Made by a program: the position numbers and the translations under genes | The notes under the pieces: model-generated | Told to the model about the DNA's origin: nothing | Database searches by the model: none | The model's input: the letters and a program-made list of their open reading frames with translations, nothing else | Origin: Lentilactobacillus dabitei | GTDB taxonomy: Bacteria; Bacillota; Bacilli; Lactobacillales; Lactobacillaceae | Length of the DNA: 64,000 nt | Direction of reading: 5' to 3' | Assembly: GCF_019061365.1 (NCBI RefSeq) | Contig: NZ_JAHPPD010000002.1 | Coordinates: forward strand, 1-64,000 | In this document: one piece after another, positions 41,909 through 47,344 of the stretch | Numbering within the stretch: the stretch's first letter is position 1 | Layout of the letters: each line of letters opens with the position of its first letter

Positions 41909-42544
41909 CTAAAAGCCTGAATGAACAACTCGGTTATAGTAGCGCAGATAATATGAGTGATTTTCAGGGGCATACGTAATCTTGGTCACACTTGTATTAT
42001 CGGGTTCTTCAATGACCATCATTTCTTTAGGGGAGCCCATCGCAGCCAGCACCGCAGCCTTGATTGTGAAGCCATGGGTGACAACAATAATCTGATCATC
42101 AGGGAATTTCTGACTAACGCTGCCCATAAAGTCCTGTGCTCTGGCGATAACGTCTTCAAATGATTCGGTATTGCCACCCGCCACCGTGACATAAATTGGC
42201 AGCACATCGTTTAAAACGTGGTCAAATACTTCTGGATACTTCTCTTCCAACTCAGCGTTCTTCTGGCCATCCCAATCGCCATAGGAAATTTCCAGCAACC
42301 GTTTGTCATAGGTTATCGGTAAGTTCGCACTCTGATTTAAAATGTTTGCGGTATCTTTAGTCCGTTGTAATGGGCTTGCGATGATTTGATCCGCAAACGA
42401 GATATCGAAACCCTGATGTAAACTTTCCGCTTGTTTCTTTCCAGTTTCCGAAAGGTATGTCACTTCCGTATTAATGATTCCCTGCTTTAGGCCAATGGCA
42501 TTTGCCGCAGTCTGGCCGTGGCGAATGAAGTAAAAGTCAGTCAT
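41909..42544 (-). CDS. Histidine phosphatase family protein
   Basis: 211 residues. RHGQTAAN at residues 7-14 and a second His in VVTHGFT, the phosphoglycerate-mutase-like fold. ATG 42544 follows GGAGG; nine further in-frame codons upstream overlap that site. Function unknown beyond phosphatase or mutase chemistry. Only distantly similar to the one at 21323. Confidence 0.85.
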   Translation of the reverse strand: MTDFYFIRHGQTAANAIGLKQGIINTEVTYLSETGKKQAESLHQGFDISFADQIIASPLQRTKDTANILNQSANLPITYDKRLLEISYGDWDGQKNAELEEKYPEVFDHVLNDVLPIYVTVAGGNTESFEDVIARAQDFMGSVSQKFPDDQIIVVTHGFTIKAAVLAAMGSPKEMMVIEEPDNTSVTKITYAPENHSYYLRYYNRVVHSGF

Positions 42545-42671: not shown

Positions 42672-42700
42672 TTGCATTTGTCTGTGGGTTCTGTTAGATT
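42672..42700 (+). promoter_or_regulatory. Promoter of the serine leader
   Basis: TTGCAT (42672-42677) and TAGATT (42695-42700) with 17 bases between, about 16 bases before the leader-peptide ribosome site. Moderate match to consensus. Confidence 0.55.
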
Positions 42701-42727
42701 TTAATTATAAGAAATGGAGGTATTCAC

Positions 42728-42793
42728 ATGAACGTGAATTTAATGACTTTTACAATTAAATCATCCTCCTGGTCTACGGTGTCATGCGGGTAG
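42728..42793 (+). CDS. Serine-rich leader peptide (SSSWS), attenuator control ORF
   Basis: A 21-residue ORF, ATG 42728 to TAG 42791-42793. GGAGG (42716-42720) lies 7 bases upstream. Residues 12-16 are Ser-Ser-Ser-Trp-Ser and residue 19 is Ser, five Ser in eight codons (TCA TCC TCC TGG TCT ACG GTG TCA). It precedes serC-serA, the serine biosynthesis genes, and is followed by four complementary RNA segments. This is the classic layout of a translated attenuator that reads charged tRNA-Ser. Confidence 0.85.
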   Translation: MNVNLMTFTIKSSSWSTVSCG

Positions 42794-42915
42794 GCCATCT
42801 TTTAGTGCGATATTTTCGACAAAAGGCCTTACACGGATGATGTTACATCACACTGTGAGGCCGTTAAAACTGCTATGCTAACGAGCTCTCACAGTGTCAA
42901 TCTGTGGGAGCTTTT
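42790..42915 (+). promoter_or_regulatory. Serine attenuator: switching helices and terminator
   Basis: Segment 0 (42790-42796, GTAGGCC at the leader stop codon) can pair with segment 1 (42825-42833, GGCCTTACA). Segment 1 can instead pair over 9 bp with segment 2 (42854-42862, TGTGAGGCC). Segment 2 (42851-42859, CACTGTGAG) is perfectly complementary to segment 3 (42888-42896, CTCACAGTG). Segment 3 forms the terminator with segment 4: AGCTCTCACAG (42884-42894) and CTGTGGGAGCT (42902-42912), then TTTT. All pairs are exact or G-U. Confidence 0.85.
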
Positions 42916-42942
42916 AATTTATGATAAAGGGAGTTTTGAGCT

Positions 42943-44019
42943 ATGACGGTTTATAATTTCGCGGCGGGACCAGCAACGCTACCAGATCCGGTGATTAAGC
43001 AAATTCAAGCAGAGTTACCATCACTTCAGGGAACCGGTATGAGCATTTTGGAAATTTCTCATCGTTCTGCCATGTTTGACGGCATCATCAATACGGCTAA
43101 ACAAGATATTCGTGATTTAATGCATGTCCCCGACAACTATCATGTATTATTTTTCCAAGGTGGCGGCACCGGCCAATTTGCGGCAGTTCCACTTAATCTC
43201 GCCACCGATCACAAACGAATTGCCTTGCTAGACAGTGGTCACTGGGCAACTCGGGCAGGTGACGAAGCAGCTAATTTGGGTGTGGCTGTCGACGTCTTGG
43301 CCACAACCAAAGCCGATCATTACCGACAACTCCCTCACTCAAATAAACCACTTTCCGCAGCTGAGTATGACTATCTTCACGTCACGACTAACAACACGAT
43401 TGAAGGAACTGCTTACCATACTTTGCCTGAACATGGCGATGTCACTTTGGTTGGTGACTTGTCGTCCAATTTCATGGCGGAAGAATACAACGTGAATGAC
43501 TTTGGCTTAATCTTTGGCGGAGTCCAAAAGAACCTCGGCCCTGCCGGCGTGACCATCGTCATTGTTCGAGACGATCTGGTTAAACCAGTTGAACACATCC
43601 CCAGTATCCTCAACTATTCGTTATTTGTTAAGAAAAATTCGATGTTTAATACGCCACCGGTTTTTGCAATTTATGCGACTGGACTCGTTCTTAAATGGCT
43701 CAAGCAACAAGGCGGCCTTGCCGAAATTGAAAAGATCAACCGCAAGAAATCGAGCTTGCTTTATGATTTCTTGGATGAATCCAAACTATTCACCAACTAT
43801 ATCAAGCAATCTGATCGTTCATTAACAAACGTGCCATTTACAACTGATGACGCAGATCTTGATAAGCAAGTCATCCAAGCCGCATCGGATGCCGGCTTAA
43901 TGAATTTAAAAGGCCATCGGAGTGTCGGTGGCTTGCGGGCCAGTCTATACAACGCAATGCCAACTGAAGGCGTTCAAGCACTCGTTGATTTCTTACACAA
44001 CTTTGAAAAGAATCATTAG
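42943..44019 (+). CDS. serC: Phosphoserine aminotransferase
   Basis: 358 residues, usual length. FAAGPATLPDPV start, FFQGGGTGQFAAVPLNL, and the PLP Lys in GGVQKNLGPAG. Converts 3-phosphohydroxypyruvate plus glutamate to phosphoserine. First gene after the serine attenuator; serA follows after 11 bases, so they form one operon. Confidence 0.95.
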   Translation: MTVYNFAAGPATLPDPVIKQIQAELPSLQGTGMSILEISHRSAMFDGIINTAKQDIRDLMHVPDNYHVLFFQGGGTGQFAAVPLNLATDHKRIALLDSGHWATRAGDEAANLGVAVDVLATTKADHYRQLPHSNKPLSAAEYDYLHVTTNNTIEGTAYHTLPEHGDVTLVGDLSSNFMAEEYNVNDFGLIFGGVQKNLGPAGVTIVIVRDDLVKPVEHIPSILNYSLFVKKNSMFNTPPVFAIYATGLVLKWLKQQGGLAEIEKINRKKSSLLYDFLDESKLFTNYIKQSDRSLTNVPFTTDDADLDKQVIQAASDAGLMNLKGHRSVGGLRASLYNAMPTEGVQALVDFLHNFEKNH

Positions 44020-44030
44020 GAGGAACAGAC

Positions 44031-45197
44031 ATGTATCAAGTAAAAACTTATAACGCAATTGCTCAAGCAGGTTTGGATCAATTTACCGACGACTACCAAA
44101 TTAATAAAACAGATGACGCGGATGCCTATTTAATCCGTTCCGTGAATTTGCATGATCAAGAATTTCCAAAGAGCCTTAAGGTGATTGCCCGGGCGGGGGC
44201 TGGCTATAATAACATTCCCTTGGACAAAGCCACTAAGAATGGAACCGCCGTTTTTAATACTCCTGGGAGTAATGCCAATGCCGTTAAGGAGCTGATTATC
44301 GCCCTGCTGGTTGCCTCGTCACGAAACTTATTTGCTGCAGCAGATTATGCTGCTCATAACAGTGGCGCCGATATTTCATTAAGAACTGAGAAAGACAAAA
44401 CTAAATTTAAGGGGACTGAGCTAACCGGTCGAACCCTTGCTGTCATTGGTGTCGGCCACGTTGGCTCATTGGTTGCGAATGCCGCCAGTGCCCTTGGGAT
44501 GAAAGTCATTGGCTATGACCCTTACTTATCGGCTGATGCGGCATGGCACATTTCAACCAACATCACCCGGGCGAGAACGCTGGGTGAAGCGTTGGCCCAC
44601 GCTGATTACGTCACCGTTCACGTTCCAAAGAATGAAGAAACAACCGGCTTAATTGGCAGCGAGCAAATGGAAATCATGAAAGACGGCGTTAAACTTTTCA
44701 ATTATTCCAGAGGTGGTATCGTTGATAATACCGCTGCGGTAGATGCATTGGACGCCCGCAAAATCAGAACTTATTACACTGATTTTGGCGAAAACATCCT
44801 GCTTAATCGTGACGATGTTGTGGTAACGCCACATATTGGCGGTTCAACGATTGAAGCCGAGGCTAATGGGGCAACTCAAGGAGCCAATACGATCATGACC
44901 TATCTGGAAACAGGTAATATTATGAATTCGGTTAATTTGCCTAACCTCCAAGTGCCATTTAACGCCCCTTATCGGGTGACGATTATTCATAAAAACATTC
45001 CGAACATGGTTGGTCAAATTGCAACCGCCTTGGCCGATGCCGGCATTAATATTGAAAGCATGAGTAATGCCGCTAAAGATGGCGTGGCATACACCATCAT
45101 TGATCTGGATAATCTAAAGAACGAAGCGGACAACAAATTAATTCAACGTTTGAGCAAAATTGACGCGGTCTACCGGGTCCGGGTATTGAAGAAGTAA
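44031..45197 (+). CDS. serA: Phosphoglycerate dehydrogenase with ACT domain
   Basis: 388 residues. NAD loop GVGHVGSLVANAASALGMKVIGYDPY-type Rossmann motif, substrate site NTPGSNANAVKELI, His in TPHIGGSTIEA, and a C-terminal ACT domain (about 318-388) for serine feedback. Oxidises 3-phosphoglycerate in the first step of serine synthesis. TAGGAGG ribosome site. serB is not nearby. Confidence 0.95.
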   Translation: MYQVKTYNAIAQAGLDQFTDDYQINKTDDADAYLIRSVNLHDQEFPKSLKVIARAGAGYNNIPLDKATKNGTAVFNTPGSNANAVKELIIALLVASSRNLFAAADYAAHNSGADISLRTEKDKTKFKGTELTGRTLAVIGVGHVGSLVANAASALGMKVIGYDPYLSADAAWHISTNITRARTLGEALAHADYVTVHVPKNEETTGLIGSEQMEIMKDGVKLFNYSRGGIVDNTAAVDALDARKIRTYYTDFGENILLNRDDVVVTPHIGGSTIEAEANGATQGANTIMTYLETGNIMNSVNLPNLQVPFNAPYRVTIIHKNIPNMVGQIATALADAGINIESMSNAAKDGVAYTIIDLDNLKNEADNKLIQRLSKIDAVYRVRVLKK

Positions 45198-46821: not shown

Positions 46822-46988
46822 CTCCTTTTTGGTGGTCAAATTTCAATCGACCTTTTTCTAGGGAATCCGTCAAAATTCCTATATAATCTTACTTTGTAGA
46901 GAAGTTAAGGCGGTGGCTATTTCCAATTGGAGGTGGTGCTTATGGTGTTACAACGATAAGCTCAGATCCTATGAAAGGAGTAGCATGA

Positions 46989-47093
46989 GTGTCCGTTTCG
47001 GATGCCCTACAATTAATGTTGGCTTTCGGTACTTTTATCGTAGCCTTATTGGCATCAGTTGTTGAGTTGACTAAAAATCAGCGAAAAAAATAA
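46989..47093 (+). CDS. Type I toxin, holin-like membrane peptide
   Basis: 34 residues from GTG 46989 (AAAGGAG, 8-base spacer): a short Ser-Asp start, LQLMLAFGTFIVALLASVV membrane helix, and a Lys/Arg-rich end. This is the pattern of the Hol_Tox/TxpA-type toxins of Gram-positive type I systems. A five-codon ORF (46942-46959) with its own GGAGG precedes it, and a TATAAT lies at 46882-46887. An overlapping antisense RNA is predicted (47084-47197). Too short for standard gene calls. Confidence 0.8.
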   Translation: MSVSDALQLMLAFGTFIVALLASVVELTKNQRKK

Positions 47094-47197
47094 CCGCCTT
47101 AGCTTGGCAGAGCTAGCGGTTATTTAACCCTAAAATGCCACCGTCTTAAACGGCTCTATAAGGGAAATCCTTGTCTGATAGGGTCTCCGTTTTTCTA
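47084..47197 (-). ncRNA. Predicted antisense RNA (antitoxin) to the type I toxin
   Basis: An extended -10 promoter TGATATAAT on the minus strand (47204-47212) would start RNA near 47197. A strong terminator hairpin AATAACCGC / GCGGTTATT followed by T7 (47084-47125) ends it, giving about 110 bases. It overlaps the end of the toxin gene and its 3' UTR. Convergent transcripts sharing their 3' region are the norm for Fst/TxpA-type systems. Confidence 0.65.
47148..47194 (+). terminator. Terminator of the toxin mRNA
   Basis: AAACGG (47148-47153) pairs with CCGTTTTT (47187-47194), with additional inner pairing. It lies about 55-100 bases after the toxin stop codon. Confidence 0.6.
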
Positions 47198-47344
47198 TTC
47201 GTTATTATATCACAACTAAATCTTTTATTGGTAATCCGACCTTTCTAAAACGTAGAGACGGTGTTTCACAATGTGCTAAACTAGAAGTATTGAATTCTGT
47301 TCCTTAATAACACAAGCAAAATTGCCATTACTTTCAGCATATTT

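Follow-up and report, generated by a model that had tools for sequence, protein, structure and literature searches.

The window, by which we mean the whole stretch of Lentilactobacillus dabitei DNA that was analysed (64,000 nucleotides), contains serC, which encodes phosphoserine transaminase and is present as one copy in its own genome, followed after 11 bases by a serA-like gene (Table 1). The window SerC shares 99% identity with its Lentilactobacillus rapi counterpart and 83-91% with those of nine other named Lentilactobacillus species. Upstream of serC lie a probable promoter, a short ORF with its Shine-Dalgarno sequence, and six RNA segments capable of alternative pairing. The promoter score in the window (7.5 in a consensus scan) is under the shuffled mean of 7.9 and is weak, while the score at the same place in relatives averages 9.6 over 96 leaders and is at least 9 in 76 of them.

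Several further features surround this region. A histidine-phosphatase-family gene (41909-42544, minus strand) lies divergent to serCA, and a relative of it was found at the same place in 20 of the 21 loci searched (L001-L021; absent in L021). At locus L183, the end of a similar phosphatase gene runs straight into serC on the same strand. The protein encoded in the window matches PspA below cut-off. No SerB above the curated cut-off was found in the window's own genome, a cut-off passed by only 7 of 14 control genomes, and the divergent gene may represent the missing phosphoserine phosphatase. On the other side of serCA, Rfam matches to rli28 (46872-47058, plus strand) and to the nearby RatA antitoxin RNA (47121-47204, minus strand) were obtained, a pair that possibly forms a type I toxin-antitoxin locus.

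Table 1. Coordinates of the serCA leader and the genes downstream of it in the window
Feature	Positions	Strand	Sequence or partner	Basis
Probable promoter	42672..42700	+	-35 TTGCAT, 17 nt, -10 TAGATT, TG before -10	sequence; predicted
Shine-Dalgarno of leader ORF	42716..42720	+	GGAGG	sequence
Leader peptide ORF, 21 codons	42728..42793	+	MNVNLMTFTIKSSSWSTVSCG	translation; equivalent ORFs in 96 aligned leaders
Putative regulatory codons (Ser-Ser-Ser-Trp-Ser)	42761..42775	+	TCA TCC TCC TGG TCT	Ser conservation
Segment A, in Trp-Ser-Thr codons	42770..42777	+	TGGTCTAC; partner 0	covarying helix; window fold
Segment 0, at stop codon	42790..42797	+	GTAGGCCA; partner A or 1	covariation
Segment 1	42825..42833	+	GGCCTTACA; partner 0 or 2	covariation
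Segment 2	42851..42862	+	CACTGTGAGGCC; partner 1 or 3	covariation
Segment 3	42884..42896	+	42888-42896 = CTCACAGTG; partner 2 (antiterminator) or 4 (terminator)	covariation
Segment 4 and interrupted U-tract; with 3, intrinsic terminator	42902..42920	+	42902-42912 = CTGTGGGAGCT; partner 3	terminator scan
serC, phosphoserine transaminase, putative controlled gene	42943..44019	+		ORF; TIGR01364 above cut-off
serA-like, D-3-phosphoglycerate dehydrogenase	44031..45197	+		ORF; best NCBIfam match TIGR01327 (PGDH), below cut-off

Leader reading frame and helices in the window

An earlier sequence-only reading had described a GGAGG in front of a 21-codon ORF with five Ser in eight codons, and this was confirmed by reading of the sequence. 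The five Ser fall within codons 12-19. At the Ser frequency of the window's genes, 21 random codons would hold such a cluster of five Ser in eight with probability 4.5e-4. The ORF ends with TAG (42791-42793), and a Cys is located near the C-terminal end of the encoded peptide. The leader possesses a short ORF with a ribosome-binding site, in which tandem codons specify serine, which the operon makes, and an intrinsic terminator with an interrupted U-tract (TTTTAATTT, 42912-42920) is positioned between this ORF and the first gene.

Segments 0 (42790-42796, GTAGGCC) to 4 were found where the same reading had placed them. Its description of the helices as exactly complementary holds for 2:3 (9 bp) only, because helix 1:2 has 9 bp with one G-U, helix 3:4 has 11 bp with one U-G (42884-42894 with 42902-42912) and helix 0:1 has 7 bp with a one-base bulge. 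In addition, a further helix, A:0, had been overlooked, in which 42770-42777 pairs with 42790-42797, the latter containing the stop codon. Together they give an architecture of the his type with six segments, in which three successive hairpins (A:0, 1:2 and 3:4) would represent the off state and two alternative helices (0:1 and 2:3) the on state. The window leader RNA has a folding energy of -64.7 kcal/mol versus -47.9 +/- 4.45 for 200 dinucleotide shuffles (z -3.78), with 1 of 200 being as good, and the minimum-energy structure of the full-length leader, obtained without a ribosome and without comparative input, consists of A:0, 1:2 and 3:4. Conservation is nevertheless stronger evidence for the element than either the folding energy or the Ser chance figure.

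Distribution and covariation among Lactobacillaceae

In Lentilactobacillus, Companilactobacillus, Apilactobacillus and Lactiplantibacillus (Lactiplantibacillus plantarum among them, locus L014), serC is preceded by the same arrangement. A covariance model (R1) was built from 22 leaders in an alignment made without structure (A1), and searching 397 Lactobacillaceae genomes with it at E<=1.1e-5 returned 96 matches in 96 genomes. Among them, 94 are upstream of serC on the same strand at a median distance of 33 nt (range 21-577), and a 95th (G220) is also just upstream of serC, as the serC start follows in its own sequence. These 95 serC-linked matches span 11 genera, and two further leaders in fetched loci (G365 of genus g6 and G377 of genus g37) add two extra genera. 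The resulting covariance-model alignment (A2) holds 96 leaders from 13 genera, 52 of these leaders coming from 10 genera that had no part in building the model; the near-identical L. rapi loci L082/L001 were omitted from it. An antisense row (L163, + strand) was excluded from the codon, folding and promoter counts and included in the 97-row covariation counts. Within the family, R1 matches weaker than about 35 bits are for the most part chance or antisense; away from serC there is one stronger match (G099, 35.1 bits), whose neighbours are crcB-like genes and a fluoride riboswitch.

serC itself was detected in 174 of the 397 genomes, three of these detections being no better than E about 3e-4. 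Not every serC in the family has the leader: among 99 serC loci retrieved from Lactobacillaceae outside Lentilactobacillus, 22 have no aligned leader. The 100 family loci were the highest entries of the serC list with some lower ones picked in addition, and are no random sample. By eye, four of the 22 (L191, L194, L199 and L181) appear to carry a Ser-run ORF and an A:0-like hairpin of different sequence. Two other loci (L192 and L196, genera g2 and g39) show hairpins and T runs before serC, with no Ser-rich ORF visible. Among 395 genomes of the order, 13 R1 matches at E<=0.001 were found outside the family (best 7e-5), none of them near serC in the 8 of 13 genomes with a listed serC place. Likewise, 40 chosen serC upstream regions (500 nt) from six other families (f2, f3, f4, f5, f8 and f9) gave no R1 match at E<=0.1, and five of these regions (L211, L221, L230, L232 and L237) contain an ORF in which three or four of eight codons are Ser, none resembling this leader.

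Some loci depart from the usual layout. The distance from leader to serC is 577 nt in G167 (L121/L013, a Lactiplantibacillus daoliensis contig) and 364 nt in G385 (L118), versus about 33 usually, and in L013 the DNA nearest serC contains GC-rich inverted repeats, as if by insertion. In another genome (G009, L100/L101), the serC match is split over two pieces that overlap (residues 1-196 and 189-358), suggestive of a frame shift, with the leader intact.

Covariation was analysed on both alignments, with shuffles that leave the relatedness of the sequences in place. In A1 (22 sequences), A:0, 1:2 and 3:4 are paired in 95.3% of cells, compared with at most 50.4% when slid, and their covariation is 0.315 versus 0.212 +/- 0.011 shuffled and at most 0.149 slid. 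Helices 0:1 and 2:3 are paired in 97.4% of cells (at most 51.2% slid), with weak covariation for this antiterminator (0.230 versus 0.205 +/- 0.009 shuffled, 5 of 500 shuffles being as high). The way in which A2 (97 rows, one antisense) was made favours A:0, 1:2 and 3:4, which is not so for A1, and the value for these helices on it (0.402 versus 0.196 shuffled) is to be read with that bias. By contrast, 0:1 and 2:3 are absent from the model, and in A2 they are paired in 90.3% of cells (at most 47.1% slid), with 75 double changes versus 23.5 +/- 3.9 shuffled and a covariation of 0.259 (0.178 +/- 0.006 when shuffled, 0.071 at most when slid); double changes affect 9 pairs versus 6.8 in shuffles, a number that 25 of 500 shuffles reach. 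The leader thus has a conserved antiterminator that is mutually exclusive with the terminator, a result that is weak on 22 sequences and clear on 97 rows. Furthermore, the best 8 nt after the terminator stem hold 6-8 T in 96 of 96 leaders. Taken together, the ORF, the segments, their conservation and covariation, and their position relative to serC make the element real.

Serine codons and ribosome position

Ser occupies all three core sites (equivalents of 42764, 42767 and 42773) in 93 of 96 aligned leaders, the exceptions (L086, L106 and L169) having one Phe each at a core Ser site. Leaders in which the Ser codons are lost while the helices persist, named in the sequence-only reading as the case that would speak against it, were looked for and not found. 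The stop codon starts between -8 and +14 nt from the start of segment 0 in 96 of 96, and reading frame, start, Shine-Dalgarno sequence, Ser codons and stop position are conserved jointly. In three Lentilactobacillus loci (L087, L088 and L089), TAG in segment 0 is changed to TGG and the ORF extends four codons to the next stop; in L088 and L089 this change is accompanied by TCT to TCC in A.

In 68 of 96 leaders a Trp interrupts the Ser codons, and a Cys lies close to the end of the window peptide, which raises the possibility that the leader senses tryptophan or cysteine, both of which are made from serine, rather than serine itself. The site inside the Ser core is, however, occupied by Leu (11), Lys (8), Arg (6), Gln (2) or Gly (1) in the remaining 28 leaders, and in many cases the codon and its facing bases change in step (TGG/CCA 23, TGG/CCT 30, AAG/CTT 8 and CAG/CTG 2), the outermost pair being unpaired in 50 of 97 rows. 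Hence it is the helix that is kept at this site, while the amino acid is free. Tryptophan sensing was rejected on these replacements, and with the Ser core intact in 93 of 96 leaders we regard sensing of either amino acid as highly improbable.

Arrest peptides that act via attenuators are known, and the well-kept SSxST core would favour a model in which the peptide itself, with or without a small ligand, arrests the ribosome instead of a scarcity of charged tRNA-Ser. Against this model, the N-terminal part is highly divergent between genera and the residue in the middle of the core varies freely. Moreover, the peptide alone leaves the codon choice unexplained, since 419 of 459 Ser codons in the leaders are TCN, versus 721 of 1135 in the window's genes (Fisher p 1e-32, kinship ignored). 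We therefore give peptide arrest very little credence.

We conclude from comparison of sequences that serCA is very probably controlled by a serine-specific, ribosome-mediated transcription attenuator, with charged tRNA-Ser as the signal that is sensed. We infer that the leader is transcribed and translated, and that stalling within it responds to serine. With ample serine, the ribosome would reach the stop codon and cover segment 0, so that 1:2 and then the terminator 3:4 form. With scarce serine, it would stall at the Ser codons that lie in tandem within A or immediately before it, thereby covering A and leaving 0 free to pair with 1; segment 2 would then pair with 3 and RNA polymerase would continue into serCA. 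Since the Ser-Trp-Ser-Thr codons are themselves the strand that competes for 0, the stalled ribosome would act by covering A. In a leader that carries no ribosome, A:0 would hold segment 0, and an untranslated leader should terminate and stay off. The stalling mechanism put forward in the sequence-only reading, in which stalling frees 0, 0:1 forms and 2:3 antiterminates while completed translation covers 0, fits the comparative evidence, with helix A:0 missing from that proposal.

Ribosome positions were modelled by assuming that the ribosome covers RNA to 12 nt past the first A-site codon base and by folding the remainder to segment 4. Mean sequestration of segment 3 is highest (0.79-0.82) when the A-site is placed in the region of the Ser codons, at -9 to +3 of A, compared with 0.68-0.69 further upstream of A and a lowest value of 0.56-0.58 at +12 to +24, the usual place of the stop codon; beyond +24 it climbs again, to 0.78 at +45. 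Sequestration is higher with a Ser stall than at the stop in 93 of 96 leaders, and higher than without a ribosome in 92 of 96. The size of the effect is modest, with a Ser-minus-stop difference above 0.05 in 57 of 96 leaders, a Ser stall above 0.5 and stop below 0.5 in only 43 of 96, and a Ser stall above 0.5 and no ribosome below 0.5 in only 21 of 96. The window gives 0.82 (Ser), 0.79 (stop) and 0.82 (no ribosome); genus g23 shows no contrast, with 0.95 throughout. For RNA that stops short of segment 3, the median degree to which upstream bases hold segment 2 is 0.59 (Ser), 0.89 (stop) and 0.89 (no ribosome) in 85 leaders, the model leaving the segment unplaced in the 11 of 96 rows omitted; the stop value exceeds the Ser value in 77 of 85, and the window values are 0.96, 0.996 and 0.98, respectively.

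In minimum-energy folds of the window, a Ser stall before segment 4 gives 0:1 and 2:3, and a ribosome at the stop gives 1:2. Contrary to the model, the antiterminator forms without a ribosome before segment 4 is made, and the terminator forms in the full-length Ser stall. Because the equilibrium folds of the window only partly match the proposed states, the switch would have to be kinetic, with timing deciding the outcome. Timing is decisive in other attenuators as well.

A further role of the Ser codons was considered. In the no-ribosome fold, the leader GGAGG can alternatively pair with CCTCC inside the Ser codons, and at least three Shine-Dalgarno bases are expected to be paired with the Ser-codon stretch in 92 of 96 leaders (mean 6.6, versus 3.7 after synonymous Ser recoding). 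In addition, TCC accounts for 165 of 190 Ser codons at sites -6 and -3, while it makes up 12% of Ser codons in the window's genes. The TCC TCC run could then be an anti-Shine-Dalgarno sequence that masks the leader's ribosome site when this is left uncovered by a ribosome, such that about one co-transcriptionally loaded ribosome senses each transcript, combined with UCN selectivity for a subset of tRNA-Ser isoacceptors and not for serine itself. However, TCCTCC is found in only 73 of 96 leaders and is missing from all leaders of five genera, and we consider this extension rather unlikely.

Finally, T-boxes are common in lactobacilli (PMC3766115) and a Ser T-box controls serA of Paenibacillus polymyxa (PMC8002221), but control of serCA by a T-box or metabolite riboswitch with an incidental small ORF has hardly any probability here, given that Rfam has no match in the window leader at gathering thresholds (three matches at E<=10, all far below gathering scores and none relevant), that neither a T-box nor another relevant match was found by Rfam in 60 scanned loci, and that frame, start, Shine-Dalgarno sequence, Ser codons and stop position are kept together.

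Comparison with known leaders

The his leader of enterobacteria is described by a scheme of segments A-F. The serCA leader resembles that attenuator in having a leader peptide with tandem codons of the operon's amino acid, and in its alternating helices, among them an additional hairpin that precedes the terminator. It differs in that the amino acid is serine and not histidine, in belonging to another phylum, in having no sequence match to Rfam leader families, and in that the first helix includes the regulatory codons themselves. The extra hairpin in the his leader has been modelled as lowering basal read-through (PMC1183508), and by analogy helix 1:2 or A:0 may have the same effect here. The serC motif RF00517, listed as an RNA of unknown effector (PMC3766115), likewise gave no match in the window leader.

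Within Bacillota, ribosome-mediated attenuation before amino acid genes is shared with the His leader peptides of the B. cereus group, Eubacteriales and Erysipelotrichales (PMC9413887), the hisS/hisZ leaders of bacilli (PMC2965389) and the Leu-rich leader of ilv-leu in Staphylococcus aureus (PMC5794164). These leaders differ in amino acid and in genes, and the available text of the three papers has no serine leader among them. A serine-specific leader-peptide attenuator was not found in the literature searched, which covered few subscription papers and to which Lopatovskaya, Seliverstov and Lyubetsky (2010) is a possible prior contribution. If the proposed mechanism is true, serine would be added to the amino acids sensed by leader peptides, and a his-like six-segment design would exist in Lactobacillaceae, where T-boxes are common. 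The serine supply of many food lactobacilli would then be set by a translation-coupled switch that is absent from Rfam, and the leader would lend itself as a small natural reporter of serine starvation and of the difference in sensitivity between UCN and AGY codons.

In serine-starved Bacillus subtilis, UCN codons have been reported to slow ribosomes more than AGC/AGU in sinR (PMC3862929), and the preference for TCN among the leader Ser codons fits such UCN-specific slowing, although in the available text of that paper sinR has no attenuator or structured leader. The serA T-box of P. polymyxa, as far as the available text describes it (PMC8002221), likewise responds to the charging of tRNA-Ser and acts by antitermination on a gene of serine biosynthesis. 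By contrast with the reading proposed for serCA, it does so by direct binding of uncharged tRNA to the RNA, with no translation involved, and its specifier is AGC, whereas the codons of the serCA leader are mostly TCN.
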